Shown here piece by piece: positions 10,880-61,619 of a stretch of 64,000 nt of DNA. Made by a program: the position numbers and the translations under genes. The notes below the pieces were generated by a model, which was not told the DNA's origin, ran no database searches, and saw only the letters and a program-made list of their open reading frames with translations. Numbering within the stretch: position 1 is the stretch's first letter; each line of letters begins with the position of its first letter. The stretch comes from Steromphala cineraria (Eukaryota > Mollusca > Gastropoda > Trochida > Trochidae), in the NCBI GenBank assembly GCA_916613615.1, contig OU744731.1, forward strand, positions 53,815,289-53,879,288, read 5' to 3'.

Positions 10880-13800
10880 CTGTGTATGGAATAATTATAA
10901 TAATTTGAAACATTGTTCACTTCATTGAATGGGTATATATTTCAAAATGTATGAAATAGGTAATTGATTGTGAAAGTGACCAGTGATATTAAAGAAATAT
11001 GTACCATAGGCCTATGCGTGCATTTTCCCGCAGCAGCATAATTTGCAGTTCGCTACCCCATATGATTGGCATGAAGGTAGAATTTTATTTTTGCGAAATG
11101 GATATAAGATATGACTTTCAAAGACAGAAATAAAATGACACATTGTGAAAATTGCTTAGTTTATAGGTGTTGCACAACGCATATTCTTCTAGAAAATAGA
11201 CTGTTAAAATATAGTTTGACTTTTAATATTTTTTACTTTTTATAAATATTAAACAACAATACGATCACCCAAAAGAAATGAAAATATGTTATATATTACT
11301 GTGTGTATCCGAGTTTAACAAAGTTTTTTAATCTACCAAAAACCCAAACTGCTCACATTGTCCTACGCCTAACTATATTTATTAACAAATTACATTTACA
11401 TAATCAACTCTGTACATGATTTTATTACCGCATCAAAACGATTTACTCTATTTTGAGTTTTAAGTATTCTATTCTTGCCCTTTATTGAACTAACACACGT
11501 TGGAATAAGAATGAATATATACATGCTCATGTTGTGATTTTGTGCTTGTTATTATGTATACTTTTGTAATCATAAGACTTTATGTACGTCGCATATATTA
11601 TGTTATGGAGAGGCATTAATATAAGCCATTAGCTTGTTTGCCAATCCAGTTTCTGTAGATTTATAGAAATAAATATGTTTAAAACAAATTACATATGGAA
11701 TTATGCTCATATTAATGTATCGACCGTAACAGCGCTCTAATGTAACATACGAAAAAATGTCGTTTGTACTATTGGCCTCATGGCCACTCTACCAAATAAA
11801 TGTCTGTCTGTCTATCTATGTATCAATTGAATGGTTCGGGGTAATAAATAGATAACCCACACATTTCTACTTTTGAGAAAATCGCGTTTGAAACTTTTTA
11901 CACGTTAGATAGTTTTTTGGGGGGCAAAAACATGATAGCCCCACTTCCCAATAAAAAAACCTTTTAACTTTCCACAAAAGATATGGTTAAGAAGCTGGAA
12001 CTATCTTATTTTGATCTCATGATGTTTTCTCATAATTAGAGTGCAGTGTTATGCCATTATTTTCTATGTATGAAGAACAAGTATCATCTAAAAAATAAAT
12101 TTCTGTTGCCATTATTTGAGGGTTGTCACATTTTTACCAAACGAAATCGAAAATGTTGTGGCTTATCACAAGGCAGGTATGATGCAACTCCAAAACTGTA
12201 AGAGCTAAGGGAGGTAATGCATAAGAAAACGAAACATGTGCCTCTTGCTACCCACAAATGATAAAAATGTTGGAAAAATGGGTTTTGAGGGTTGTCTACT
12301 TATTGCCCCAAGCCCTTCAATTTACCTTGTGTAGAGATAGTGGTTGGGACTGTTGATGGTGCTATATCTCCGATATCGTAGACTTGAGACTTCGATCCAA
12401 GGGAACAATCTGGGCCGTCGTTAAATATGTTGTGTATGTCTTCGTACTCATAGATATCATCTGCGTCGTTGTATATATCCTCCACACTTGAAGCAGCAAA
12501 CGACCTGAAGTCAACCACAATCACTTATTATAATACCAGCGATCAACCAATATTCAACAATGAATAATAATAATAACGTGCATACTTCTATTGCGACTTT
12601 TCCACGTCCTTAGACATGCTCATGTGCTACATTATTACCCCGAAGGAGTGTTCTTTCACAGCTGCTACTAAGCGTTAATCACGACCACGTAGGTCAGTAC
12701 ATCTTGTTGTCAGGTACCCATTTTAACTGCTGGGTGGACTGAGTGTAATGTTGATAAAGTGCCTTGCCTAGGGACACAATTGTGTCTCAGGGATTATATG
12801 TGATCTTCCAGCATTATTGGAGATCCGTTAGATATACCATCAAATTTCGATAAAGTTGTAACATAACCCATTAAATATTTTTGTAAAAAACACTTTTGAT
12901 ATATATGACATAACAAACTATAAATTTATGTTTATAATATGTTTCATGCTTTCATACAACGAAAGTCATTCAACAATAAACGATATAACTTGCAGTATAA
13001 AACCTATATTTATACATGTATGATATATCGGCATGTTGCCTGAAAATATAAATACAATTCTTCTTAAATAAGGCACTACAGATTTTACGAACGCTTCCTG
13101 GAGGCAGCGTGATAATTTCAAAGAGTATCAACCGACAATACGTAATAGATACATGATGACACAAGGGGTGTATACGAAATATCAGCGAGCTATCATCTCA
13201 CGAGGGGGCGGAGCCCCCGAGTGAGTGATAGCAAGCTGATATTTCGTATACGCCCCGTGTGTCAATCATGTATCTGTTTTATCCAATGGGAAACGTCTTG
13301 CGACCTTTCACCCGACATCAACACTCCGTGCATGATCATCTTTAGATCAGTCTGAAGAAATCGTCCAGCGACGAATGTCGGAATGATCCTTTTTCCTTCT
13401 TAAATTTAAAATGATAAATAGATGACCTGGCCTTCTCTCATCTAAGCAGGCATATGCAACTTGTATTTACTAAAATAAGGTAACACTATTTTTTTCTGAA
13501 GATGTATTTCATTTAATTGGAAATGTAAGTTTTACAACCAGTGCTCTAAATTTCATGAATTGTTTGTTTTCACCGAATTATTTTGGTCCTTTTCGTAAAT
13601 TATTTGTGATAGTGGTTAACGTTTAATGAACGAAATGTTCAGCCACCGAATTTCTGCACTTAGCGGTTTTCATTTCTTTGATCTTGGCCTACATGTTTGA
13701 ATTTGCAACAATGTTGAACTTTCTCAAGGTCGTCGGCCAGATATTGCTAGCTCCGCCCTCAAGCTGCCTCTCTCCTTCATGATTGTCGAATAAGCATGTC

Positions 13801-19800: not shown

Positions 19801-22800
19801 ACCTTGCTTTTAGGATAAATAACTTAGGGATGTACCTCTATAACTCTGAATATGGTGGGTATCTTGCTTTTATAACAAATAACTTAGTATATACCCCTAT
19901 CACTCTGAAAGCGGTGGGTATCTTGATTTTAAAACAAATAACTAAGTATATACCTCTATCACTCTGAAAGCGGTGGGTATCTTGCTTTTATAACAAATAA
20001 CTAAGTATATACCTCTATAACTCTGAATACGGTGGGTATCTTGTAGAGGAGCCTAGTGTTTGGTTCTAGAGGCATCTCCTCGCTATCAGCTTCCATCTCC
20101 GCCATACACATTTTGGAGGTCGTGCGGGGGAACACCCTGTTGTTGGCTATAGATAGAGCATGGAATTGTAATGATGAATGTTGAATACGTAGAAGTTATA
20201 TAAAGAAAACAAATAGACTAAAAAGAAAATTAAGGTCAAACATTGATATAACGTCACAGATGTTGTTTTGAAGACCTAAGTACTGCCGTGGCAGTTCAAT
20301 TAGTTTGGCCATTATGGTTATGTATTAGCTTTGACGATACAGACATACGAAGATACGATACGTAATAGGATGATAAAGAACGATATGATACATGATACGA
20401 TACACCATTTTGGCTTTTTGATGCCGGGAATAACTCGAATACTTTTCATCTGATTTTACGGTCAAATAAGCAACTTAAAATCAACGATACGTATCACAAT
20501 ACAGACATCGTATCACAAAACCTATCTTGTCAGATCAAGTAGTACAATTCTCAATGTATCGTTTCATCGTCTTTACGTTAGTAATAATCATAACTAGGGC
20601 TGTCGCAGCAAAACTTAGGTCTTCAAGACTTCGCCTTTCACCTTTATTAACTAGGACTGCCGAAATTCTTCGAAATTTCATCTTTGACGTTTGTTCAATG
20701 TTTGACCGTCATTAGTCTAGAAGTTCATAATATAAGGTACTGCACAGATATGTTGGTCTTCATCAAGCGAATAAATGTTAAACATAATTGGATCACATTC
20801 ATGGTAAAAGCGTAGTGCCCCTTTAAACTCAAGCTCAAAATTGCATAATGTGATACCTTCACTCGTTGCCTTTTTCTGTCTCATTGCTAAACCTTATATA
20901 TACCTGTAAAATTATAATTATCAAAGTCTCATATTTTAGTTGTTTGTTGTTACCTGTTTACAACAGTGTTGCTGAACCAATGACAATCAGAACCATTATC
21001 TCTTATTTAGCTAAAAATTATTTATGATATGTTTGATAAGAAAAGTCGAATTAAACTCACCGAATTCCCCTGCTGGCCCCTGAAATAATATTGATTACAT
21101 TAACCTTTGATACTAACTAAGTATATTGTTGTATGACACGGATAGTCTCTTGTTTTAGGTCCCTTCGACTGTGTTAACACAGTATGTTGCACGAGCGATG
21201 AAACTCTAATCGAACGACCATTGAGTCACCCATCTTCCTACGCAAAGCCTAAAACGCCATTCTCCGAACTGTCAGTTTTATACCTTGCTGTGTACCCTTG
21301 AGTTTTCTGTGCTTGCTCTCTTGCCTGTAGGGGCACTATAGCAGAACAGAAAAGTAAAGGGTCTGCAGCAAGGCCTAAAATAACAGTTCGGAAACTGGCG
21401 TTTTAGGCTTTGAGTAGGAGGATGAGTGTCACCTAATGCCCCTCCTGTTAAATCGAGGAGAAGGTTCTGAGAGTAACGGAAGTACGTCAATTGAAGCAGT
21501 GTTTATAAAGTACCCAAGACATGCTTACTTCTATAGGGGCATATTATAAACGCATTCAAAATAGGCTGATGTGAGGGTTAGAACGTGGGTTAAGGAAAAC
21601 AGTAACATTTGTGATTTCGGAGACCATGTGATGTTAAAATTTCATTGATTAATTGTTTGTGACAAATTAATTTTTTCATATTTTTTACAGCCTGGCAATC
21701 ATACTCAGTTGAGTATACTAGTCGTTAGCTCTAAGTGGCATCCGAGCATGCACAAAAATAGTCTGGGACTCTCTATGTGAGTCAAAGCGAACGTAGCGTT
21801 AGTGTTTATGAAACCGTACTCCGTTGATTAAAAAGAAAACAGAGGTAAGGGATAGTAAAAGATATGTAATCCCGACCTGTATTTGGGGAATAAAGGTTGC
21901 CTTAATGACTGAATTAATGTATTCCGATATTCCTCAAGGGCCCGTGTTGTTGTTATTACGTCAATCATTTCACACTTATAATAGTGAATTAAGACAATAC
22001 TTTAGGTCAAAAGAAGTTTTGGAGTTTGTCAAGTAACATATACAGACAGAAAGAAAAACAAAAACTTATTTGAACCTTGGAGATAGATAATAAACTTTAG
22101 TCGTTTTACACGGCTAAATATATATTACTCAGACAAAACAACTTGTTTTTCTGTCACCATTAAATACATGCACATATATATAGGTAAATACTAAAATACC
22201 TACCCTATGTGGATCACCATATTCCATCCTGCTCAAGTTCGGAAAATCATTCACTGTCAATTGAACTGTCCGCCGACCTAAACGATATTTGTAAAATCAC
22301 AAGTGAAAATGCATAAATCATAGAAGGCTATAGTACAAAATACGTTCCTTCTTATCTAAGTTATGACAAACTATCTGGATGTAAATTGTGGCATTTTTTT
22401 CAGATGTGCCACTGCTTGTAAAATAAGTTCAATATATTTTATTTCCTCGAATACAATCCCCAATCTAATGAGTTTAGCGTAACATTCATATAATGAGAAC
22501 TGAACAACACACGACAAGAGTAAGGGTACAACATGACGCACATGCTTTTAGTCCAGCTAGTTCAAAAGAGCTCCTACTAATAAATCGGTGTTACAGTGCA
22601 GTAAATATGATCGTATTTTAATGACAATTTCTTGCCCAAGCGGGCAAGGATATGCCGGGTATTAAAGTTTGCATAATGGTCATGGGAATTACTGTTTTCT
22701 AAAAATAACTCGCATTGATTGGTTGAGGTTGACGGAACTTTTTTTGTATCCATTCATCATGCACTTCTTTTTCAGTTGAGAGATATAGATGAAAAATCTT

Positions 22801-25800
22801 ATACTTAAATTGCGAAAGTCACACATTACTACAACATATTTAATGGGAAATCAAGGCCTTCTGATGTTTTATTTGTCGTAAATACAAGTTTAAATCTTTA
22901 ATTAAGGCGGCGCTAGGTGGGAGAGTCGCCGGCCGAACTGTCGTTATGTCATAGCTCTATGATGTCATTAAACATGACGTCATACATTCCTCACTAGGCT
23001 TGTCAAACGTTACGAAAGCTAACGACGTCTTAGTTTTCCTTCCTGGTTGTGCGCGGTCAATAAAAACGATTTTCTATTATATGAGACAATATTTCTCTTT
23101 TTCCCCCGTTTTAACGCATCAAAATTATCTTGGGTAAGAAAAAGAATAACCAACTCGATGCTCTAAATTACGGATTATATGTCCCTCGTGAATTATTGTG
23201 TCAAACTCGCTGAAGCTCGGAGTTTATCACAATAATTAACTCAGGACAGATACTCTGTAGTTCCTCGCAACCCGTTTATTATTCTTATATTATCGCCTTT
23301 GAGGGCAGTCATATCGAGGTTCATATTTTTCATGTGTTGCCCTAGGGCAAAATATCACTTTTACATTTTGACGTCACGTTATAAAAAATGGGACTACGGT
23401 ATAAATAAACAGAATATTCGTGCCCATGCGATACTATGTTTACGACATTCGTGCCTAAATATCAGTATCAGCTCTCCCTCGGGAAATACTGATATCAAGC
23501 CACTCGTGTCGTAAACATAATGTCATGGACACTCATATACTATCCTCTATGTATGCTGAGATTGATACTTAGTTCTGTGTTTGAAGAAATGCAGTCACTA
23601 TAAATGAGACCCGTTGTAAGATGACCTACTAGTAGAATTGTATTCGTGCTGAGTTTCCTCCAGTTGACATCTGGCTTCGGATAGAGACAATCTGTCATTG
23701 TCATTCGGTTTCGTACACTCCGCAATGGCGACAAATACCTTTGTAGGTATACACCTTTCTTGAGGAAGCTTCTTCGTCCCTCGTTTGATCTGCAGAAATA
23801 TGAAATGATACTTTTTAAATTCATAATCAGTGCAGTCTCGAAAACCATGTGAAAAGTTACGTTGAAGTTTATCAGTTAGTGTGAAAGATTATTTGACATT
23901 GTTAGGTCAAAAACATCTATACGAGCTTCTGGTGTAGATCTTTAGCCGAACAGGTAAGGTGTCTGACTCTTAACACGGAGGTTACGGGTGAAAATTTCAC
24001 TCGTTCTTCATTTTGCGCCCACCGTGGGCCATCTTCCTACGCAAAGCTTGAAACCCCAGTTTCCGAACCGTCAATTTTATGCCTTGCTGCCGACCCTTGC
24101 GTCTTCTGTGCTGATATCAGGGCTCCTACAGGCTATTGTTAGCAAGATCCAATTAGCTTCTGATTGGACTTCTGCTTTTTCTCATAGTAAGCTAGAGAGC
24201 AAGCACAGAAAACTCAAGGGTCGACAGTAAGGTATAAAACTGACAGCTCGGAAACTAGCGTTTTAGGCTTTGCGTAGGCCGAAGCTATTCCTTAATACCC
24301 TGGACGTCACTTAGTAACTATTTAAAACTATTATTAGATACCAATACTTAATGATCAGTGATATGAAGGAATCATCTTTGTATGTCAAAATCTTTAACTT
24401 GTTTAAATCGTTTATTTGAGGTCGTCTCAACATATATTTTATTCTACGTATATTTATATTCATATCTTTTCGTGAGCCCTCATGTTTCCAACCTTACCAA
24501 TTCCGCCACTTCCGCCTCCGATTTCCGGTCCAGATCTGAGTACGGCAGAGTCCCGTGAGTGATGACCTCATAGATGAGATGACCCACCATCCAATTGTCA
24601 GACCGGAAGGAGAAGTGACACTGGCTCAAGGACTCAGGGGCAGACCACCGTGTTGGAATGCCGGAACACTTCCGGTCTGGATAAGTACCATGTCATGACT
24701 TAAGGATCTTCGTTTTTCAGCGGCAATTAAATTTGAACTATTATTTATATTGGTGACAATTGATGATTTCATATGTAATGCCTCAAAGTCGACAACATAA
24801 TTAAGTAAAAAGAGAAATCATCACTATTGATGACACCACAAGGTCCATGGAAGCAAAGATTCGTTTGCAGAGTTTCAATGTCAAGCGTTTTCTTTCAACA
24901 AAAACAGACGTAAGCTCTAGGGGGGAAATGATTAACAATGGAACACAAAAACAGACGTCTTACTGCCGTAATTTCTAAATACTTTGTGGATCAATGATTC
25001 TCACAAGGAAGATATCTTAATTGAAAGTGATATGAAAGGTGAGATTGAATCCAACAAATATAACTCCATTACATTGAACTCAAAAAAACGAAATCCACGA
25101 GAGAAATGTAATAGTTATATGAAATGTTCACCGACACGACCTTAGCGATCATGTATTCAGACAAAAACCCGTTGCGACGTTTAGAGTTACTAGTGATAGT
25201 TTCGATCAGATATGAAAATGTAAAAGAGACCAGACATGGACCATAACTTACCAATTACAATGTCCTGGTTCACTTCACAACGTCGGGCCAGATCAAACCT
25301 GTAGAGCTTAACCTGATTGTGTTCCCTGCTGAAGGTGAAGCTTGACGCGGTGATGTCTCTGTGGACGATCCAGTTCTTCTGGAGGTACTCCAAGGCGTCC
25401 AGGGCTTGCAGTAGAAGCTCCAGAAGCTCCACGGGTTGCAGAAACTGCTTGTGCTTTGCTTTCGAGAACAGCACCTGTTGTATGACAAGTGATTATATTT
25501 CTTATCATACGCCAGACAACAAAGGATAAGGTGACTTAGCCTCCAGAAAGCGCACATGTTGTATGTCAACAGATTGTATTTCTTATCATACGCTTCTCAA
25601 AGGATAAGGTGTGCTTAGCCTCCGAGAAGAGCACCTGTTATATGATAAGAGATTGTATTTCTTATCATACACAAAACAACAAAAGAATTGTGCTTAGCCT
25701 CCGAGAAGAGCACCTGTTGTATGATAAGAGATTGTATTTCTTATCATACACAAAACAACAAAAGAATAGGTATGCTTAGCCTCCCAGAAGAGCACCTGTT

Positions 25801-28800
25801 GAATAAATAGTTATTATATTTCTTATCATCACCAGACAACAAATGATAAGGTGACTTAGCCTTTAAGAACAGCACCTGTTGTATGTCAAGTGATTATATT
25901 TCTTATCATACGCCAGACAATAAAGGATAAGGTGTGCTTGGCCTTTAAGAAGAGCACCCGTTGTATGTCAAGTGAAAAAATATGTCTTTTCATACGACAG
26001 ACAACAACGGATGAGGTGTGCTTGGCCTTTAAGAACAGCACCTGTTGTATGCAAAGTGATTACATGTCTTATTATACGCAAGACATCAAAGGATAAGGTG
26101 TGCTTAGCCTACGAGAAGAGCACGTGTTGTAATCAAGTGGTGATACGAGTATTTAAATATTTCGAAGGATAGGATAATGTCACCCTACCCAATCAGAGTG
26201 AGGCTTCTACAATAAAGCGAAAGGATTTCTCTGGTATCGCTACCGACTGGTAACTCATGGATATATTGCTTATCATGAGGTCTCTATGTTCGTTTTATAA
26301 GGTATTTAGGAGAATCAATGAAATTGAATCAGGGCAGAGTTAGCCATGATATTTGTGCCCTGATGTAGCTAGTCAGAGAGTGACCCTCCTTATATCTGTC
26401 TGATTGTAGTTCTTGTTGAACAGATGGCAAGTGATTTACAGAACTGGTATGCAATAGCACGGCAAAAAGGTTGTAGGTTCAAAACCTCGGAATCAGTGTT
26501 CTTGATTGAAAATCGATAAGTGTTAACTATAAATAAATGTTTGTCTCGGTACATTGTATGGACTTATTCTCCAAATATATACACAAAAAACTTGTGCAAC
26601 TTGTCAGATAAATTTCAGCAACAATCATATCCAGTATCATGTGCTTTATAACACTGTTAGTATCTACACCGAAACGTGCAATATAGAAGTTGAAAATCCT
26701 ACTCTTTTTATCAAACGAACGTTTCCAAAATGCCTCTCAAAGAAGTCAAGATTTCTAGGACATCCATTGGACAACCAGTACTCACCGATTGCGTGATGAC
26801 TTTTTACCTGTTTGAGGTTCGGCTGGCTGTAGTCCTCCGTCACATAGAACACAGGGATTTTCTCCAGTCTGAAGGCGAATAGAGGCAGGATGTGACGCTG
26901 TGACTTCAGCATACCAAGGATCTCCATTGTGTTTCGATGACCACAAGCAGTAGGGTCCAGAGTGCTTTTCAGTTGTTCCCTGTGGTCCGCTTCTGGAAGG
27001 GATAAAGAGGACCTTCAATGGTGCATTTTCTCTCTTCGAATAATAGTCATAATGCAACTGGCACCATTGCCTCGGGAAAAATACTAGGTGCAAAAATTTG
27101 ACGGACTCAAACTCAATAAGCTTCTACTCTGAAAGTATTCTTAAATGCTTCTGAAAACTGATGTGAACACCTCGCATACCATGATGATTAGTGGGTTTGC
27201 AGAGTTTGAAATAAAGATCATGTTGCACAAGCCCATACATAGTCGACAAGGATCCCTTTCTGTTTCTACCGCCTTTGGTATCTATCTAATACGACTCTTT
27301 GCAAGTTGACCCACGACCTCAAGTGAAGATTTAAAAGGTGATCTTTCATCTGTAAATCAGATAATGACTCCTATGTGTGCTGAAAACTTCATTTAGTGTT
27401 GGCTATGATGGCTTGTACATCTTTTTACGTATATATATACGTATACGAAATGTTTAATCGAGTGTATGAGATGAGCACATGATATTATCATTAAGCAGGA
27501 AGTGAAGTCAGAGTTATTTCCCTTGGTGCTACTGAGTAAAGCTCACAAGTAGCTTCAGATTTAAGTATAATGGACTCTGTGAAAAATAATTGATAATCTA
27601 TTCCTTTGAACAGAATTGTAAAAAAAACCAAAGCTGTAAGTACCTTCAGGTAGATGAATATGGAGCATCGTTCTTTCCGAAACTCTTCCAACCGGAAGTT
27701 TCAACCAGGAGTCACTCTTAGGACTTCCGCTCTTGCGCTGAGCTTCTGTCAGGTCAATGTTGATAGGCTGCAACTTGTCAGATATATCAGATAAAGCCAT
27801 GAAATGCACGATGTCTGAATAAAGGTTGGTGTTTGTCAGCAAGGAGAGGCAATTTTGCCGTATAAGGTTGTTGCTGGAGAAGACGAGATCTCGCGCGACC
27901 TTAATGTTACCCGAGAGCACATCCGGGCACTTTTTTAAAACCTCAAAGGCAGCGTTTATTTCCTTCGTGAAATCCTCTCCAGTTCTTTCCTCTGTAAAAG
28001 AATTTAACATCCTTCTGATGGATAATGATGATGATAATGATGATGATAATGATGATAATAAATCATCGGTAATTAGGGAAACATAAAAGTTTTTGAAAAA
28101 ATAATGTTTTCTTATGAATTTAAAACCAGTCTAAGTACCTCCGACGATGTCTACTCTCAAATGGATAAACAACATATCCTCTTTTATCACCGGAACGTCA
28201 GTTTGAAAATAAGTCGATCATCCACAAATTGACGTTGACGTTGTTTTGTCTTTACAAATCTTACCAACAGACTTGAGGAAGGAGGTGATTCCAAAGGTAA
28301 TCAGGTTGCACACTCGGGGATGTGGTCTGACTTCGGACCGTCCAAGTATCCGTTGTCCGCCCTTATTGGGTTTGAGGAGGTTCGTAAGCGTCAGAAAAGC
28401 TTCATGTCTCGCCTTCACGTCTCCATGGAATATCTGTGAATGTTAATACACGACACTAAGCCATTTGTACCAGATTCCTGTCTTGTAAGCATGAACCAGT
28501 GGAATGAGGGATGTATTGGCCTAAAATGCACATATTTTTCATTGTTTTAAGGCACTAAGAAATACTGTTGTTACATTGTGAGAAATTCTGGCCTTAGGTA
28601 GAGGGTTATATCTTTAGCCGAATCGGTACAGTGACTGCCTCTCAAGGTCCCAGGTTCGAATCCCGGTTGAGGTGATCTCACAATCACTTCTGTTACATTG
28701 TCAAAAGAAGCTTAAATTACAATTCTTTGTTAAACCATAGAACTCACTCTTGTAAAAGAAAAGTCGTGTCTTGTTTCAATGCAAAAGAATAACAAATTTC

Positions 28801-31800
28801 AACACATACCTCCATTATTGTCCTCAAGGCCACGATAAACTGGCTCTGCCAAATTTTCTTATTTTGAAAGTCTTTCCCGTCTGCAGCTCTCATGGCACGA
28901 ATGTACAAATCTCTCCTGTCTCTGAAATCTTCTACAAAAGCTTTGACGTCATCTAGTTTGTTTTCCGTCGTTTGAAGGACATGAATCCTTCTGGCAAAGA
29001 AAGGTGACGTTGGTTTATTGTGGTCAACCGAAGCGACGATTTTATGTACGATTGTTACGAGGTAGATACATATGACCTCTGAGGCTTCGTGAGAGTTATC
29101 TTTCCTTGCCTTGAGACTCATTGCTTGATCAAACAAAGTCTGTTCGGCTGGTTTTATTGCTGGTTCTGAAATGTAGCCAATTTCCTTCGAGAAAAGGATC
29201 TTCATGAAGACCTGTTGCGCCTTTTCTCTGATGAGAGCAATTTGTGATTTGAGTAACACAGCCACGGAGGCAACATCGCAGGACCTGGCGACTTCCGGTA
29301 GAACTTTTGTTTGGAACCAAAGAACTGTTTTGGCAAGATTTTCTCGTGTATACAGCTCAGATCGGGAATAGATGTCCTCTAGGTCACGGGCTCTGGAAAC
29401 TGTTGAGATAAACTCCGTCTAGTTATTTACTTTTTTTAAATATTTCAACTGCAAAATAAACTATAATATAAATGTACGGTTTAGAGAATTGCTGATGGCA
29501 AAGACAAAATTCTAATTGGGCCATTTTTATTTTTACGATAATTGATCTAATTTCCAGACATTAAAAACATTTATCATACCTTGCATCGATAGAATATTTA
29601 TAAATTAACAAATAAAGATTGATAGGAGAAATACAAGTATATGGAACTACAACTTCTTTATTGCAAAGAGCACGTGACGTTTCGGTTTAGATACTAACAC
29701 CGTTTTCAAGCATTTGCTACACCGAAACGTCGCATCTCTTTGCTATAAAGAAGTTGTAAATCCATATATTTGTATTTCTTCATCAAACCAACTTCTTAAA
29801 TGCCCCTGAAGGAAAATGATTGAAAGTCTACTGATACCCAGTCTAGCTAAAACTTGAGGACTTATTGGACGTATACAGCTAGTTTTAAACTAGATGTAAA
29901 GGTTACCAGTCGAGTTTTGAGTGGGTATGAATTGTAACACCGATGCACGTGCAGTGCGTGACACCGAGCCGCGAAGCGGCGAGGTGTTACGCACTGCACG
30001 TGCATCGGTGTTACAATTCATACCCACTCAAAACGAGGCTGGTAACCGTCTTACCGATCAACAAGTTATTTATTTAATTCATTTGTTCATTTGATGAAAA
30101 GACGTCGAGTTGGAACGACGTAGTTTAAAGCGCAAAAAGCACAAATTAATTTCATTAAATTCGAGGAGAGCGGAATAGACCTCAATAGTCAAGAACTGTT
30201 TATTCACCAATCCCCTGTGGACTACTGGTACAGTCTTGGACTACAATTTGAAAGGTTATGGGTTCGAATCCCATACGCTCTACTTTTTTAAATTTTACAT
30301 TTAGATATTTTACTTGAACGCTAGAGGATGAGGTTGTCGTAAATTTCATATAGCGAAAAATAATCACATTTCTAAAATATAACGTGAACAGTGAAAATTA
30401 ACATTTAATGTTGGAGGAGAGCAGAATAGATATCACAAATCAATCCCTTCTTAGTCACCAATCCTTTGTGGTCTAATGGTATAAGTCTTGGGCTACAGAG
30501 CGAAGGGTTGTAGGTTCGAATCCCGCGGTTTCGCTTCTGAAAATTTTGGAGATCGATTACCTTATCGGTCTTTGAAATTATGTGGTGCGAAACCTCCTTG
30601 GGACTTGAGGTATATAATGCAGTGTATACCACCTGAGCACGAGCAAATAAGAGGTGTGTAAGGAGGTTACCACCCTGGTACAAACAATGGAGTTGATCGG
30701 TAATGGTTGATACCCTGTCATGCTGGATCATAACTCCGAATCGTTAAATCGATGACTCGTTTCACTTAAAGGGACAGTCCAATCGGAGACGAAATTCAGG
30801 AGGACTTCCCTAAATATATAGAGACTACTTCATTGTTTTTGCCGAATATCATTTCTATCTCATCGAGTGGAGTGAGAAAGTGATATTTTCACGAGCGGCG
30901 CAGCCACGAGTGAAAATGACACTTTCTCACTTCACGAGATGAGATGGAAATGATATTCGGCAAAAACAATGAAATAGACTATTTATTATAAAATTTAAAG
31001 ATCATAAAACAGAGTTGTCGGACATCGAAAGGCAAACTTTTCCTGTTGTGATGAATGAGAGTCTAGCAACTCCATTTATAATTTCTCGGTAAAAAGAAGT
31101 TCGATAGAAATAATGCGATATTTAACCGGAAATTGTTTTTCGAAAAATATATAATTGTGTGATTGTTAAATGATATCAGATCTACAATATGACATTGTTT
31201 TTGGTTATAATTAGGTGAAAAAAAGGCTTCTTACCTTTTTTGGAAAGTCATGCAGTTTTGACGCGAACGGATACAGTGAGGGAAGCGCTATGTCGGTGCG
31301 TCAGATCTCTCGCTTCGTAAATTTATTTGGCGATAAAATGAACAATTATTAACTACAACAACAGGATATGAACTTCTGGTTGTATTCCGATATCGAAGGA
31401 TACATTATCACTGCAAAATGTTAACAATAGCATACCGAAAACATCGTAAAGAGTCGTTTTTCTTCAATCCTAAACAACGCCGTGACGCGAGGCGTGCGTT
31501 CGATTTCCTCAAAGGGAGATAATCGTGTTTCTATATCGTGTTTCTAGGGGAGGTAATAGGTTCTGTCCTACTTTTCTCACCGCAGTGAAACTATGGATTA
31601 TATTTTCACTGCAGTGAAAATATGACTTTCCACTGCTTTTCTTAAAATATGGATTATATTTTCACTGTATAACCCTATATTTCATTGCTAATCATATAAT
31701 AAATATGATGTTACATGTTTTTCCCCCACTTAATTTCAAATATGATTGTGAGGTTAACATTTCAGTTGTTCATCGGAGTAACGAGCGAAGAATACATTAC

Positions 31801-34800
31801 TTCGACAAAACATTGTCGTAACTGATAACCTTTAATATGAATTATTTGTTATAATACCAACGAGGGCAGTCATATCGAGGTTCATATTTTGCCCTAGGGC
31901 AAAATATCACTTTTGCACTGTGACGTCACGTAATAAACAATGATTTGACGTCACGGTGCACCTATGACGACACAATGTATACGGGCCGCCGCCCGCTAGT
32001 CTGCCTGTGCTGAGAAGTAGGTTTTGATCATTTTCTTCAATTTTGGGACTACGGTAATAAACTGAATATTATATTCGTGCCCATGACATACTATGTTTAC
32101 GACACTTGTGCCTAAATATCAGTATATCCCTCGCTCTCGCTCGGGAAAAACTAATATTTAGCCACTCGTGTCGTAAACATAGTATGTCATGGACACTCAT
32201 ATAATATCCTCTATATATGCTCCTCTTCTATCAACAAATAACTTATTTTTTTAATTGTGTTGATAAATTAGCATAATACAGCAAATTCGTTTTCTCGTAA
32301 TGCTAAAATTTCAAAATGGCGAATGAAAGCTAAAAGATAGGTGTTTTTAAGATGTTGATTCTATTTAATAATTTAAGACATTTGTCGAATTTAAAAATTT
32401 CATGAAAGTAGATAGGCGTACAATTAGTAGAAGCATATTTCAACTTGGTTATTAAAAATAATGTATTAATAACAGCAATGTACAAACAGGATTGTCCAAT
32501 CGAATTTCATTTCCAAAAAAGATACATAGTGAGTAAGCGAGTTGGAGTGTCCAACGTTTGGGCAATATTTCGACCATTAGAGGCGTGTACATCCAATTGA
32601 CTCTTTTTTAACGTTTGTATTCATATTTCTCCAAGATCAAGATTAAAAGTGAAATATCCCATTAAAATCATCTGGAGAGGAGAGAACCTTTAGCATCGTA
32701 GTTTCCGAACATATTGCATAGAGAAAAATGAAAGGAAACCAAAGACTTTATCAAAACGCGAATACGTTCTGCATAATCAGTCAAACAGAAACGCATAGTA
32801 AAGTGATTAAGGCACAGACAAGGTTCACACAACGACAACGGTTATTCAAGATGTTAAGATAAAGTGCATATATACTAGTTACAAAAAGATTGGAAGGAAA
32901 TTGACGATCAAACATTCGTTAGTAGGCCAAGCAGAGTCTTGAAGACCTAAATACAGTTGCAGCAGTCCTAGCTTAGTTATGACTTCTGTAGCTCTAACCG
33001 TTAAAGATAGAAATACATATATAAAATGAAAAATAATCAGCTTTCTATTTCCAACATCGTTAAAAACATTCGAACGAATTTTAGAGTTAAGAAACACTAT
33101 AACAGCAAAATAAGTGAAAAAAATCACTTTTTTACCACAAAACAATGAAAAATGTTTAAAATTTGCGAGGCCTCTCGATTTGTATGTAATACGACGGGTA
33201 TATAGTCTCTACAATAATACAAAATCTCATGCTTTCATCATGATGTTCACAAATCAACTAAAAGATTGTACTTATATCCGCTGGGTTTTAAGTCTATGCG
33301 ATAAAATAGCTCGTGTTTATCGATATTGCTATCAAAGTTGAAACCTTACTCATAGTAATATGACATGACGTGTATTATTCTGAATTTAAGTTGAATTTAA
33401 AACCGGAATTGTATTTAACTCATAGTGATTGTTCCATTTCCCGTCGCGAAATGACGAAACTTCGTATCGGTATGGTAAGACTTCAAGTTGAACTTGGGCG
33501 ATATAGTAATGTTATGAGATCACTGCGCTTATGCAGAGTATGTAAACTGGATCATATTGAAGATGAATTTCATTTTATTATGGTTTGTCCAGCCTTTAAC
33601 GACTTGAGATTAACATATGTACTGCCTGTCTGCAGACCATATGATTTAAAATACAGTTTCATCAATGTAATGTCACCATGTGATACAGACGTTACAGCTC
33701 TTTTATTCATCATGCACTCCGTCTGAGGAGCCAATTGTTGTTGTTACATCGCCAACCTGCTCACCGGAGGCCACGCATACCGAAATAAAGAATTGACATG
33801 ACGTTATCTACATATCTTTAAAAAAAAATAAAAAATAACAAAATACAGTCAAAATATCGATTTCACCAAACAGAAACGATTTTTTTAGAATTCTAAACCT
33901 CTGTACAGAAAGAAAAACAAATTAAAGTAACACCATCAAATCAGAAACTGCTCTACAAATTTGTAAAGAAAGTAATTCGAAGTAAGAAATTATTAGACAA
34001 AATGTGACCATACCAATCAGAAATGAAAAGATAATCTACCGAAAAAAAATATTAGTCCTAGACGGTAATTCACACTTTTGTGAATAAGGTTAACTAACAA
34101 ATAAGAAATGATTAAATAATTGTGGTTGGTTTTAATTTGACCAAAACCAATCAGAAATCAATAGATAATCTACCGACAAATCCTTAACAACAAATCTTAA
34201 ACGGTAGCTCATACAGTGAATAAGGTTAACCAACAAATAAGAAAACATATTACAGGGCCCCCTTTCACAAAGCCCTAAGGTCGTAAGTTCTTATGGTAGC
34301 CTTAGCGCAAGTTAAGGAATGGGAGTTAAGGTTGCTTTGTGAAAGGGGACCCAGACCTATATAAATACTTTTACCAAGAAATAAGAAATTGACTTTGAGA
34401 TACGTGTCGATTAAAGGGGTAGTATCACGTTTTTTGATAATTTTATATTTAAAATTGTTCACTTATAATTGTAAGTTTATGCTAAATGTATTTAATTGAC
34501 AGTGTCAACATTCTCATTACACAAGCCAATCACCCATAGTCAGAGGCCAAAGTATGAGGATTCACATAAAATCCATTGGCGGCCATTTTTTTGTGAACAC
34601 CTTTAATTCATTTTGTGTAAGAAAAAGGAATCGCATGGCTAAACGTAACGTTATGTATTTGAATTATTACTGCTTCATTTAGTTTAAATACATTGTCTTT
34701 CAATTGGAACCATTTATTTTCATTTTCCTGACATCACCTTATATCCCCCTAAAAACGTGCTACTGCCCCTTTAAGGGAGAGACATCCGATCAGAACAAGT

Positions 34801-52740: not shown

Positions 52741-53176
52741 TTGTTCGTATAGATGGTTAATCCAGTCCTGTGTGAGGTTCTTTGAGGTTCACCTCTCAGG
52801 TCTGGGTCTCGGTTCCGTTCTTTCTGCAGATGTGCAGTACTAATTTATGAAAGAATTTTCGAATTTTAACTTTTGTAAAAATATAAATTTTTGTCCTCAG
52901 AATTTAATGAGATAATACATGTTCAAACTTTCAGAAAAAACTATTTTCCATCTATATCAATATTTATTTCAGTATTGAATCAGACTGCTGCTAATGGTCT
53001 AATAGATATTACCTAATGGATATTGGGTTTCTAAGTTAAAGGAAATAAACAGTAATTTAGTTGGTCCGAGGTAATAGTTAGCCTTTAGCTTAACTTTTGC
53101 TTGTAGATAATACAAAATAGCAATGACAAAGGCTACAAAATACGGCAAAATTTTAAATTCGATTTTGAATTGCAGA

Positions 53177-54140
53177 ATGTCACAGATCGTTTCAAACCTG
53201 AAGGAGGTGATTATAGAGTGTCCTATTTGCACTGAGTTCTTCAATGAGGAACCTCTGGTTCCGCGTCGGATGCCATGTTGCAGTCAAGCAATCTGCGAGC
53301 GCTGCCTGGAAACCATTATTGGAAGACGCCCTGCTTTTTCCTGCCCCATGTGTAAAACAAGAAACAACCTGCCTAATGGGGCGAAATCTCATCCTAAAGA
53401 AGTGGTGGTCCTTCGGTTCCTGGAAGCCCTCAAGACAGAGAGAAATGCTGTCCCTCTTTGCACGGACTGCCCAGACGACAATAGAGCCATGTCCAAGTGT
53501 GACCACTGCAGTGTTTATCTCTGTCAGCCCTGTCTAACTGCACACAAACGACACAAGGCTACAAGGGAACACAAAACAACCACCTTTGAAGAAATGAAAA
53601 CGAACTGGCAAGCTCGACCAAGCTCTGCTATGAGGAAGCGACCCTCGGAATTGACGGAAAAGCTAAAAACTGTATCAGCTAAGGTAAATCAACTCTCGGA
53701 AATGTTGACCAATGTCGACAAGTCAAAGAAAGCAGCCCAGTCCCTTATCAACAAGAGCTGTGACGAGCTTGTAGATGAAGTGCAACAAAGAAGAGCGATT
53801 CTCCTCTCCCAGTTGGAAGAAAAAGCTGCTGCTGAGAGGACCTCAATCAATAGAGTCCTTGACTCCCACAAGCAGTACCAGGAGAAGCTGAAGAAAGTCT
53901 CCACTGAGAAGCAGCCTGCAGCGTCAACCAGAGCATTGCTTCAAGAAGCACCGACCGACCTGAAGCAGCAGAGAGTTGGCCTCATCTTCACTGAAGCAAA
54001 CCTGCAGCACATTCTGGAGGCAGTCAGGTCAGCAGGTTTGGTGAGAGTGGTCACCTTCACCCCCGCAGAGAGGCCATCTTGGGCTGCTGAAACTGCCTAT
54101 TATGATGCGGTCAAAATCGTACCGGACATTTTCCCACAAG
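53177..54140 (+). CDS. Gene B exon 1: RING, B-box, coiled coil
   Basis: Encodes residues 1-321 and ends one base into a codon at donor GTAGAA. A long uninterrupted zinc-finger and coiled-coil exon is usual for TRIM-like genes. Codon use is much more GC-rich than the surrounding DNA. Confidence 0.9.
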
Positions 54141-57017
54141 GTAGAATGACAATACAATAGTAGAACAAATATTAAAAAAACATTCGATCAAAACAGATAT
54201 TTGTTTCTCTGCCTTAGTGAAAACCTTTATACGAGAGGAATACTTGATGTTGTTTTCAAAAAAACTATTGATACAGTTCATGATTACAGAATTATTTTGA
54301 ATTATTAATTCAACTATTTTAGTAACCTTAGATCGACAGTTCTAGATTACATTAACGCTCACCTTTGAATTGACTTATCACATTAGGAGTTGAACAAAGG
54401 CCAAATTATGTATGCAATAAGAGTCTTCAATAGAAATATTACATTATAGTTTAACTCCCAGATAATTATTTATTTGCAAAGTAAGTTTCTCTGTGATATG
54501 CATCAATATTTATCATTTACCCTTAGAATCTTCAATAAATCAAGAATAAAATGACGAATAAACACTAGTCAGTGGCCCTGTATCTTATAAGGCTATATAT
54601 GGTTTATTATACAAATGACAAAAGGGTTACCAACTAAGGGATCAAAGGATCAACAAAGCTTTTGTTTTAGGCACCAAATTCTCAATTAATAAGCTAGTCA
54701 ACTCACACAGCTTAAGCTTATGCTTTTTAGAGTTGATGAAAAATTGTTTTGTTATGCAAATTTATTTAAATATGTATGAGGTTGAAATAAGTATATGTTG
54801 CCCTTTTTAGGGATCATATGGTCAACAAATCTAAAACTTTATTCACCTTCACCTAAAGAATCTGTACACATGATTTCAACTGTTTAGGCCTTTTCTTTCT
54901 TGAGGGGAATGCAAATAGGTTATAGGTCAGGGCTATAGTGCTAAGAAGTTGTTGCAATGAAGTAACCAAAAAGAGATGCTTTATACGTTTTTTAGTTTGA
55001 TCATCGCCGCTTTATTTCTCGCAAATTAGTCAAAACAAAATTTTGTTGATATATTCTAAAAATACAAATAAATACTCAATGCTCTATTCAATTTAATTTA
55101 TTTCTTAGAAAAATATTGTTTGACATAAACAGCCTGAAACTAAAATAAGTATTAGACAAACCTTTTATTTACATATTTGCATATTTTACACCTATTGTTC
55201 TACTTTGTCAGCATGTGACACTAAAATGATATTGTCACGATAAGGTACATTGTACGATGCAAGTGTTACCTTTTCATAATGTTCATAATGCTATATGTGT
55301 ACTACACATAGTCCAAAACAAATGTTGAGAATTTGTAATGTACCTAATCATAAGTCATGACAGTAAAAAAACACACATTGTACCCTTTTATATCGAGTTA
55401 AAAGAAAGAGATGTAATGATTATTATTTAAATCATAAGAAACGTTGGCCAATCACAAAATAAAGGTGTACCTCGTTGCATAGCAAGCATGTAACTATGTC
55501 TTTTTTTAAAGCATGATGCGTTTCCACTTGTGGTTCTTTGTTGTATCAAATTATACTATAATGAAAGTCCATGAACATGATACGCACCGAAATAAAGTAG
55601 TAGACGTACACAGGTATTTATGAGCGTACATGATACGCTTGAAATTTTATTTTCAGTCGTTCTTCGTCCTTTTGTCTAAAAAAAATGAATCGCTAGCTAA
55701 ACTGTACATTATATATTTGAATTACTACTGCTCCATTTAGGTTAAATGCATTGTCTTTCAATTGGAACCATTAATTTTTATTTTCCTGACATCATTGTAT
55801 ATTCCCCCTAAAAACGTGCTACTGCCCCTTTAAGGCGGCGCCTGTGTGATTGGGCATTTTGGTAATTGCCTGATCGCAGCTTGTTATTGATCATACTAGA
55901 TCAACATATAACCTCATATTTAACAAAACCCTCTTGAGATAAAGTTATTTAACTTGTATTCTTTCAGTTATTGGAGGTGATCGAACCATCGTAGTGGCCA
56001 ACAAGGCAATATCATGTAAGTATGCAATTTCTTTCATAATATGACTTATCGAAGTGCTCACTAACAGACTATTGCGAAATGCAATAAATATATGTGATTT
56101 AACAATTTCCGTGATCCATTGTTATTTCACCTGAATTAAGAACATTTATATTATTTTATATTAACTATTGATATATCAGCCAATCAAATAACTTTGAAGC
56201 TTGGATTACTCAATCAGAACCGTCTATCCGTCTCTTAGTTCACCTAGATATTAAAAAGTAATTAAGTAACATTTTGCGAACTCATATGTTCTAAAGTATA
56301 GAAATAGAAGTTTTTAAATAGACATTACCCATAATTTGATTAAATGATACTGCTTCATATCCACATTTCTATTAAGGTCCTCAATTGGAATGGGAAAAGA
56401 GCATGGCAGGCGGTAACATGACAGTGACCCCTGCAGAGATGTGCAACACATGTACAACTACCGTCCCTTCTAAACTGGACACGGGCTGCAGATTGAGGAT
56501 TGGAAATACCGCAATTGCATCAAGACCACTTGTAGTTGATGGAAATCGTATCCTTTTTAGGCTGAACCTGCGATTCAACCTCAAGACGTTGCTGCCAAAT
56601 TTAATTTATGTATTTCAAATGTGTCTGAATACCAATCCAATTGATACTGGCAAAAGCAATATAAGTTTCTTCAATGTGCGCATCATGCGATCTGTAACAG
56701 AAGAAGATAAAATTCTTTACTATATCAGTTTTGAAGACAGAGAAACAAGAATTGAAGTCTCCAAAAACATGGTCGGTGCAACATGTGATCTTGCCCATTA
56801 CCTCCTGTTAGACGGGGTAGATGGGAAGATGCACATGGTAGATGCCCATGATGGAAGTGTCCTCTTCTCTACAAGCTGCTCGTTTGACAACCCGCTCTGG
56901 ATCATGAGTTATGTTGGTGGTACTGCCCGCGTTGATATGACACATGAGATCGTTTCTGGGAGGAAACTTTCACTGAATATGAAGATGGAAAACTGTCTTG
57001 CTAATTTGCTGAAATAA
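53177..57017 (+). CDS. Gene B: TRIM-like RING / B-box / coiled-coil protein, 3 coding exons, 550 aa
   Basis: Exons 53177-54140, 55968-56015 and 56377-57017 join in phase (both split codons carry 1+2 bases). I chose ATG 53177 because an acceptor-like TTGAATTGCAG lies one base upstream. An in-frame ATG at 53123 would add 18 residues. RING: C15, C18, C35, [Gln37], C40, C43, C56, C59; the usual zinc-binding His is Gln (PCCSQAICERC). B-box: C95, C98, C108, C111, C116, C119 and H123/H126/H132. A coiled coil covers about 150-265. The family is mostly E3 ubiquitin ligases. The C-terminal ~230 residues look like alternating strands and are neither NHL nor B30.2/SPRY by eye. Gene context gives no further clue. 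Confidence 0.87.
55676..55829. mobile_element. Truncated TTAA MITE, copy 3
   Basis: Matches the right half of the 34415 family (CATTGTCTTTCAATTGGAAC and AAAAACGTGCTACTGCCCCT) and ends at TTAA 55830. The left half is missing. Lies in intron 1-2 of gene B. Confidence 0.75.
55968..56015 (+). CDS. Gene B exon 2: 48-nt linker exon
   Basis: Acceptor TTCTTTCAG and donor GTAAGT enclose 16 codons (motif IGGDRTIVVANKAIS) that join in phase on both sides. It opens the C-terminal domain. Confidence 0.8.
56377..57017 (+). CDS. Gene B exon 3: C-terminal domain and stop
   Basis: About 212 codons to TAA. A cysteine pair (MCNTCTTTV) comes first, followed by repeated hydrophobic strand patterns (NRILFRLNLRF, KILYYISFED, HYLLLDGVDGK). 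The domain family is not recognised. The acceptor TTCTATTAAG is weak in pyrimidines but is the only one in phase. Confidence 0.83.
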
Positions 57018-57355
57018 GCAGAAAAGAATTGATGTCTCTGTGACTGTTCAGTAACCAGCTATATGATCAGTTGACTACCTCCAGCCTGCACATTACTATT
57101 TTTGGACACTGAACTAATATGTCCTTCAGATCACACACAGGTAGAGATCATTAAAGAAGGGAAGGGAGTTCCATATCATACCCCATATATATGTCCCTTC
57201 TTTGAATGTTAGAGTTGACTGAACTGAGATGTGTCATCAATTACACAGTTTGAAAGGGTCAAAATTATTGTTTTGAAAGGATTTCTCCATTACATTTATG
57301 AACAAAATCTATGTGATACTTAATGTCCCTAAATCATTGTAAAAGTGAAATTGTA

Positions 57356-57495
57356 TATAAAGAATCTCACCCGAAGTGTCTTCTGATATCATATATATCA
57401 ACACAAGTTGATAAAAGTAACAAATACCCGAGGCTTACTCAACGAGTGTTGATATATTTGATATCAGAAGACACGAGGGTGAGATTCTATTTATC
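57356..57495. repeat. Long palindrome G
   Basis: Arms AGAATCTCACCC and TGTCTTCTGATATCA with complements. CAAG (57404) is exactly opposite CGAG (57443), and CGAAG lies opposite CGAG in the outer stem. The centre is degraded, with AGTAA/TTACT still able to pair. Confidence 0.7.
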
Positions 57496-61205: not shown

Positions 61206-61499
61206 GCTGAAGTTAGCAGCGGATTAGTTATTCGTTAATCGTTATTCGTTATTCGAATAACGAATAACTGACGCAGCAGCGGGTTCGTTATTCAAATAGC
61301 TGATCTCTGTTTCAAGTAAATTCCTACCAGATTCAACTTTCAAAAAAAGGATTAAAATCATCGGGATTTAAACAGAATTAACATAAATCGTCTGTCCATT
61401 AGTTGATAAGACCATATGCCAATAATAATTGCGTTTCCAGAACACAACTTAAAGATCTAGTTGTTGAAGCTTGGTATTGTGATCAGTCAATATTATAAG
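61206..61499. other. Short intergenic stretch with TTATTCG palindrome
   Basis: GTTATTCGTTATTCGAATAA (about 61240-61266) is a perfect small palindrome made of TTATTCG words. Nothing else is recognised. Confidence 0.5.
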
Positions 61500-61619
61500 T
61501 TATACCATTCAAAGGCGGGGTGCACGGGGAGATATCCGCCTCGAGCCGAAGGCGAGTTGCATAACACCAAGCGAGAGGCGGATATCTCCCAGTGTACCCC
61601 GCCTTTGAATGGTATAACG
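61500..61619. repeat. Long palindrome D with GAA loop
   Basis: Arms GTTATACCATTCAAAGGCGG and complement (about 43 bp). The centre is CGAG-CC-GAA-GG-CGAG, followed by 19 extra bases that end in another CGAG before the right arm starts (AGGCGGATATC). Confidence 0.85.

Follow-up and report, generated by a model that had tools for sequence, protein, structure and literature searches.

Palindromes marked by tandem G·A mismatches form ends of dispersed mobile elements in Steromphala cineraria and may act as folded single strands

The 64,000-nucleotide stretch analysed here (the window) holds a set of long palindromes, denoted below by their first positions, two of which form the 5′-ends of non-autonomous elements, one of them Crypton-like (Table 1). 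A first-pass annotation had described five palindromes with unrelated arms and a shared apex, and direct reading with the arms aligned agrees with it: all five are present, their loops (GGA, GAA, GCA, GAA and GAGA at 13144, 29901, 30816, 61499 and 32057, respectively) are each closed by a C-G pair, and CGAG flanks the small apex stem on both sides in every one. No mutual blastn match was obtained between families 13144, 29901, 30816, 32057 and 61499 at E 0.01 (the 29901 family entering as a database sequence only), so the arms are unrelated by this comparison and do not form one old repeat family from which the apex might simply have been inherited. Some palindromes nevertheless share a family: 32057, 23411 and L015:3826 together make up family D, and 30816 is related to L029:65-274. 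The assembly searched for further copies comprises 1.27 Gb in 281 contigs.

Table 1 Palindromes and associated elements in the window
Feature	Position	Strand	Details
Palindrome	13144-13278	+	Loop C-GGA-G; facing CGAG 13201/13218; CGAG/CAAG at 13186
Older family D copy	23411-23541	-	TGAG/CGAA; one apex CGAG lost
Non-autonomous Crypton-like element, 808 bp	29896-30703	+	GTAA at both ends; 5′-end is the 29901 palindrome
Terminal palindrome, 147 nt	29901-30047	+	Loop C-GAA-G; facing CGAG 29911/30034 and 29965/29980
Subterminal inverted repeat TTACCGATCAAC	30051-30062	+	Just within the palindrome; partner 30692-30703
Right-end inverted copy GTTGATCGGTAA	30692-30703	+	Terminal
Non-autonomous element of a young family	30814-31705	+	5′-end is the 30816 palindrome; right end from L069-L071
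Terminal palindrome, 171 nt	30816-30986	+	Loop C-GCA-G; facing CGAG 30864/30935 and 30892/30907
Inverted repeat CTATTTATTATAAAATTTA	30979-30997	+	At inner palindrome edge
Right terminus TAATCATATAATAAATA	31689-31705	+	Imperfect inverted copy of 30979-30997 (by eye)
Family D palindrome, 160 nt	32057-32216	-	Apex CGAG-C-GAGA-G-CGAG; CGAG/CAAG and TGAG/CGAA along arms
Palindrome, probable decayed member	57355-57494	+	CAAG facing CGAG in arms
Palindrome	61499-61618	+	Near-perfect 44-nt arms; hairpin CGAG-CC-GAA-GG-CGAG; third CGAG at 61572

Facing CGAG words are over-represented at short spacing: the window contains 10 occurrences of CGAG-N4-14-CGAG where 3.11 would be expected, and 100 shuffles gave at most 8. 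A strict apex was then defined as a paired stem closed by C-G, with a GNA or GNRA loop and CGAG on both sides, and was sought in the window together with 20 random 10-kb stretches (nine contigs, 264 kb in total). All six matches lie inside palindromes, five of them centrally, and correspond to the five window palindromes plus L015:3888-3901(-) of family D. No match arose in 40 Markov-simulated sequences of 264 kb each. In this sample the strict motif is confined to palindromes. A seventh apex, with a TTCA loop, occupies a palindrome centre at 23206-23219 (-), and at 61499 the small hairpin sits off-centre within a 32-base interior that also holds the third CGAG. The sequence d(GCGNAGC) is a stable DNA mini-hairpin.

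Arm-versus-arm alignment revealed that the mark is wider than the apex, since facing CGAG (or TGAG/CGAA) also occurs within the arms; examples are the outer pairs at 29911/30034 and 30864/30935, CGAG/CAAG in the 13144 palindrome and TGAG/CGAA in family D, and L017:3403-3581 carries four exact G·A sites and a fifth inside a three-base mismatch. Among ungapped two-base mismatches flanked by pairs, tandem G·A makes up 12 of 42 across 20 palindromes, compared to 0.53 expected from base composition, in rows that are partly dependent (32057 and 23411 are one family, and 30816 and L029 are related). The share in the 200 kb outside the window is 5 of 15. Every one of the 12 sites has the context Py-GA-Pu, which favours sheared pairs in DNA, and the sites are kept in arms that are otherwise well paired. 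Four of the other 30 mismatches are one step off (CGAG/CAAG twice, CTTG/CTCG and CGAA/TAAG), as CpG decay would produce in most of these cases.

The first-pass annotation had further attributed the shared apex to selection on, or generation through, a folded single strand of defined polarity. Persistent G·A sites, their placement on one strand, an excess of G·T and compensatory changes all argue for selection; this support does not extend to generation through the fold. Three palindromes (29901, 30816 and L017) have several exact G·A sites, and within each of them these all fall on the same strand. On the CGAG strand, 27 G·T face 13 A·C in 14 palindromes (one-sided binomial P = 0.019; rows are non-independent, related ones are included, and polarity is doubtful for 23142 and L015:1898). 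Because the strand was chosen by its own G·A sites, only the G·T count is an independent measure, and we regard it as a modest, indeed weak, polarity signal. The CGAG strand is also predicted to fold better than its complement in five of five window palindromes with both DNA and RNA parameters, by 0.7 to 8.5 kcal/mol (DNA) and 1.0 to 18.1 kcal/mol (RNA); for 13144, 30816 and 32057 these values refer to the central part alone. Such modelled energies cannot tell DNA from RNA. Diverged palindromes L044 and L051 share 102 and 95 of 131 bases with 29901 (78% and 73%) and keep 9 and 12 compensatory pairs, respectively, with five broken pairs each, counted on the 29901 structure and in rows that are related to one another. 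Their loops are GGA in L044 and TGA, which is not GNA, in L051. Between families, the structure is common where the arm sequences are not alike.

The 29901 palindrome is multicopy (at least 88 matched stretches, with 40 of 60 candidates scored), and its copies define the ends of an element. In all 11 copies compared, the window included, the left side is unshared sequence up to GTAAA, which is followed by GGTTACC (GGTTATC in L008), the palindrome and GTCTTACCGATCAAC (a variant in L006). At the right, GTTGATCGGTAA, the inverse of TTACCGATCAAC, is followed by unshared sequence in the six of 11 copies that reach it within the fetched stretch, and the right end of L009 was located in L052. GTAA stands at both ends, given the left GTAAA and the right-end GTAA, in the six copies with both ends compared and also in L009+L052 and L006+L053. 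No target duplication beyond GTAA was seen by eye in the six copies, where the bases outside vary. No inverted repeat occupies both of the very ends; of the 12-bp pair, one copy forms the right terminus and the other lies 155 bases inside the left end. Central deletions occur in L007-L011 of the main copy set. Two tRNA-like stretches with GGTTCGAATCC boxes at 30261 and 30513 lie at 30170-30540 inside the element, and a further box is found at 28653. Across the whole window, Rfam at gathering thresholds returned only one match, a tRNA. The distal flanks of L011 and L008 contain a tandem array of ~146-bp units common to both loci.

The 30816 family repeats this arrangement. The best 40 of 1306 first-look candidates, the window included, all show at least 98% identity, and in 14 of 14 copies compared by eye the flanking sequence is common on the right but not on the left. 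When three longer right flanks are set against the window, the right end falls at ~31705. The 29901 and 30816 families consequently show the same order of terminus, palindrome, inverted repeat, body, inverted repeat and terminus. In the 30816 family only ATA is a possible direct repeat, and the apparent targets are A/T-rich. Family D (32057, 23411 and L015) starts with ATAGAG on the CGAG strand and continues past its palindrome; it has the TATA-box-like 5′ start ATATAGAG in common with the 30816 family, which indicates that some families are remotely related. In the L017 family, two copies agree to the right of the palindrome and, by eye, not to its left. On the CGAG strand the order terminus, long palindrome and body is therefore common to the four families with copies seen (29901, 30816, D and L017): in 29901 and 30816 both element ends are defined, which makes the palindromes terminal modules of dispersed mobile DNA, and in D and L017 the body is seen on one side. 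Towards their distal ends, the 30816 and D elements have short palindromes of similar layout around ATTTTCACTGCAGTGAAAAT (31600-31623) and ATTTTGCCCTAGGGCAAAAT (31884-31907).

Coding content is provided by an autonomous-size copy of the 29901 family at C2:5667225-5672873 (L006+L053; 5649 bp), which has the palindrome and matching ends, starting with GTAAAGGTTACC and ending with GTTGACCGGTAA. From separate ORF pieces, L053 gave a QRICH1 domain (PF25561, 37.8 bits; cut-off 30.8) and a C-terminal phage-integrase part that is barely above its cut-off (PF00589, 27.7 bits; cut-off 27.1), and HSLR...GHRS...Y, the latter half of the R-H-R-Y catalytic motif, can be read by eye in L053:3382-3681, where the first R was not located (introns). 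The gene lies on the CGAG strand. A diverged copy, L044+L054, has a left palindrome arm and, deeper inside, a complete palindrome. Its ORF pieces follow the same order as those of L006+L053, with 37-59% amino-acid identity, and include a QRICH1 domain at 31.3 bits (cut-off 30.8). Homology to the recombinase gene was also detected by tblastn at L009+L052 and L010, with no Pfam hit in the L009 ORF pieces, and none of the 10 element ORF pieces scanned contained a helicase, polymerase or terminal-protein domain. Since a recombinase gene occurs together with 29901-type ends, the family is Crypton-like, and it derives from a Crypton-type tyrosine-recombinase transposon. Two features of Cryptons were found within this family, an encoded tyrosine recombinase and terminal direct repeats in the 4-6 bp class.

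The large copy is informative in another respect. L006+L053 retains the inner CGAG pair and has lost the outer G·A site, where its left arm is an exact complement, and its apex CGAGCCGAAGCGGCGAG has an AAG loop or an unequal stem instead of a regular C-GAA-G cap. The marks are therefore not indispensable to every inserted copy; at the same time, arms can evidently be homogenised, which makes the persistence of G·A elsewhere more telling.

Among known systems, Crypton A shares with the 29901 family the QRICH1-like and phage-integrase domains, a short direct repeat at both ends (GTAA here), as in fungal and stramenopile Cryptons, and non-autonomous derivatives; it differs in the 147-bp terminal palindrome and the asymmetric 12-bp inverted repeat seen here. 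QRICH1/ZMYM genes were linked to Cryptons by Kojima and Jurka, whose survey reported no terminal repeats in animal Cryptons (PMC3212892, available part of the text). In the present elements the ends are defined and a short direct repeat, a long hairpin and a recombinase gene occur together, which brings end recognition within reach of tests with oligonucleotides. As structured single-strand ends of mobile DNA, the terminal hairpins of REP/IS200-IS605 elements are alike, and differ in their HUH transposase and short stems. A palindrome that is terminal, one-sided and marked by structure, in an element with a tyrosine recombinase, also brings to mind the integron attC site. There too the palindrome varies in sequence, a tyrosine recombinase recognises its fold and strand, and unpaired bases set the polarity (PMC2727003, available part). 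The marks here differ in being tandem G·A and not extrahelical bases, and the ends read GGTTACC...GGTAACC on the CGAG strand, without the AAC (R″)/GTT (R′) box order of attC. Streptomyces telomere palindromes share GNA loops (GCA, GGA), sheared purine pairs and sequence-divergent stems (PMC7205883, available part); they differ in belonging to chromosome ends and not a transposon end, and in having several short stems.

Our preferred but tentative reading is that a folded single strand of fixed polarity is the working form of the palindromes, perhaps as an attC-like recombination substrate; we assign it a probability of roughly 0.4. Tandem sheared G·A in Py-GA-Pu context, along with a GNA/GNRA cap, would make the folded strand rigid and one-sided, allowing recognition by structure instead of arm sequence. 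The hairpin would then function, as single-stranded DNA rather than as RNA, in recombination or replication of the element itself, in a role resembling that of attC, with the folded CGAG strand as the form presumably bound by the recombinase; a comparable recombinase link would be predicted for the other families. Circularisation of the element would give the junction GATCGGTAA-AGG-TTACCAGTC, whose imperfect dyad symmetry is of the type that a recombinase of this kind might require. Were the fold itself the signal, a class of eukaryotic mobile DNA would be read by non-canonical base pairs and not by sequence, and repeat finders based on sequence families would have split this class into unrelated entries. 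A wider proposal, which we consider rather unlikely, is that unrelated transposon families have arrived independently at a common structural code, or pass it between them: a single-strand hairpin at the terminus, with Py-GA-Pu marks and a GNA/GNRA cap, that tyrosine recombinases read. If true, this would be a eukaryotic counterpart of integron attC, with conservation limited to the non-canonical pairs and no constraint on the sequence of the arms.

Other explanations account for part of the same evidence. The hairpin could act as RNA, in the 5′ leader of a transcript, with G·A pairs and GNA/GNRA caps that shield it from double-strand-RNA sensing or cutting or that bind a protein. This is the main rival, though we consider it fairly unlikely. 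In its favour, the recombinase gene is encoded on the CGAG strand, two loops are of GNRA type (family D, GAGA; L008, GAAA), the excess on that strand is of G·T(U) over A·C, ATATAGAG resembles a TATA box at the start of the 30816 and D families, and the strand difference in folding is larger with RNA energies in four of five palindromes (61499 being the exception). The 29901 family, however, has no TATA-like start, and the palindrome's place beyond the inverted repeat, at the very terminus of the DNA, is more easily reconciled with a function of the end than with a leader.

A second possibility is a rolling-circle Helentron/Helitron2 element read in reverse, its palindrome being the 3′ terminator hairpin that follows the 3′ subterminal repeat. 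Helentrons/HINEs and Helitron2 likewise have subterminal inverted repeats placed asymmetrically, one of them flanked on its outer side by a palindrome. The reversed layout, with a 5′ inverted repeat at the terminus, its partner further inward, next the palindrome and last the 3′ end, matches the descriptions in the available parts of PMC4067079, PMC7492417 and PMC3627910, and HINEs have been described in Pacific oyster (PMC7492417, available part). Such elements differ in their Rep-helicase, shorter palindromes and insertion sites, whereas in the 29901 family the copy whose ends match codes for a tyrosine recombinase, with no helicase in the 10 ORF pieces; that family has GTAA at both ends, not a T/T insertion without duplication, and palindromes here measure 147-171 bp compared to 5-10 bp in mite HINEs. 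The Helentron/Helitron2 reading, already weakened for the 29901 family, is clearly unlikely.

Quite improbable, in our assessment, is a replication hairpin, acting as primer or as protection at the end of a copy that is linear or single-stranded, for which the hairpin-type ends of parvoviruses are an analogue. One arm has been lost within a few bases of the apex in 10 of 20 stretches taken from weaker, mostly partial 29901 matches (by eye), as such a hairpin might leave behind; yet apex breakage, like the central deletions of L007-L011, would equally fit the ordinary cutting of hairpin tips in chromosomal palindromes, with no special mechanism needed. Streptomyces telomere GCA/GGA loops with sheared purine pairs resist single-strand nucleases (PMC7205883, available part), which favours a protective role, but the palindrome is present at one end only and the ORF pieces scanned lack the polymerase or terminal-protein domain this would call for. 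Least credible is an origin free of selection, in which palindromes decay and re-homogenise and the mark descends from one remote ancestor: the common start of the 30816 and D families and the homogenised L006 arm are in keeping with it, but the excess of tandem G·A, all in one context, homogenisation that would itself remove such sites, arms that do not align between families and closing pairs that change in step (CGAG/CGAG, TGAG/CGAA) leave it very little room.

A protelomerase was considered and rejected: the ORF at 53123-54160 (+) gave a Pfam TelK_muzzle hit (2.1e-5, 25 bits; cut-off 27) that is a coiled-coil artefact of a RING/B-box/coiled-coil TRIM-like protein. A 23-base apex pattern had 0 matches in viral contigs, and none of the titles and abstract openings listed in literature searches contained a description of these hairpins. 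Several further structures were recorded. In L039, a copy of the 29901 palindrome is rearranged at its GCGAAGC loop, with an extra piece of arm inserted as if by template switching. Long inverted repeats at 21219-21438 and 24036-24278 have related arms (CCTACGCAAAGC...) that carry no G·A marks. Finally, another palindrome family is represented at L008:2000-2180 (-), which starts with ATATATAGAG and has the apex CGAG-C-GAAA-G-CGAG and facing CGAG in its arms.
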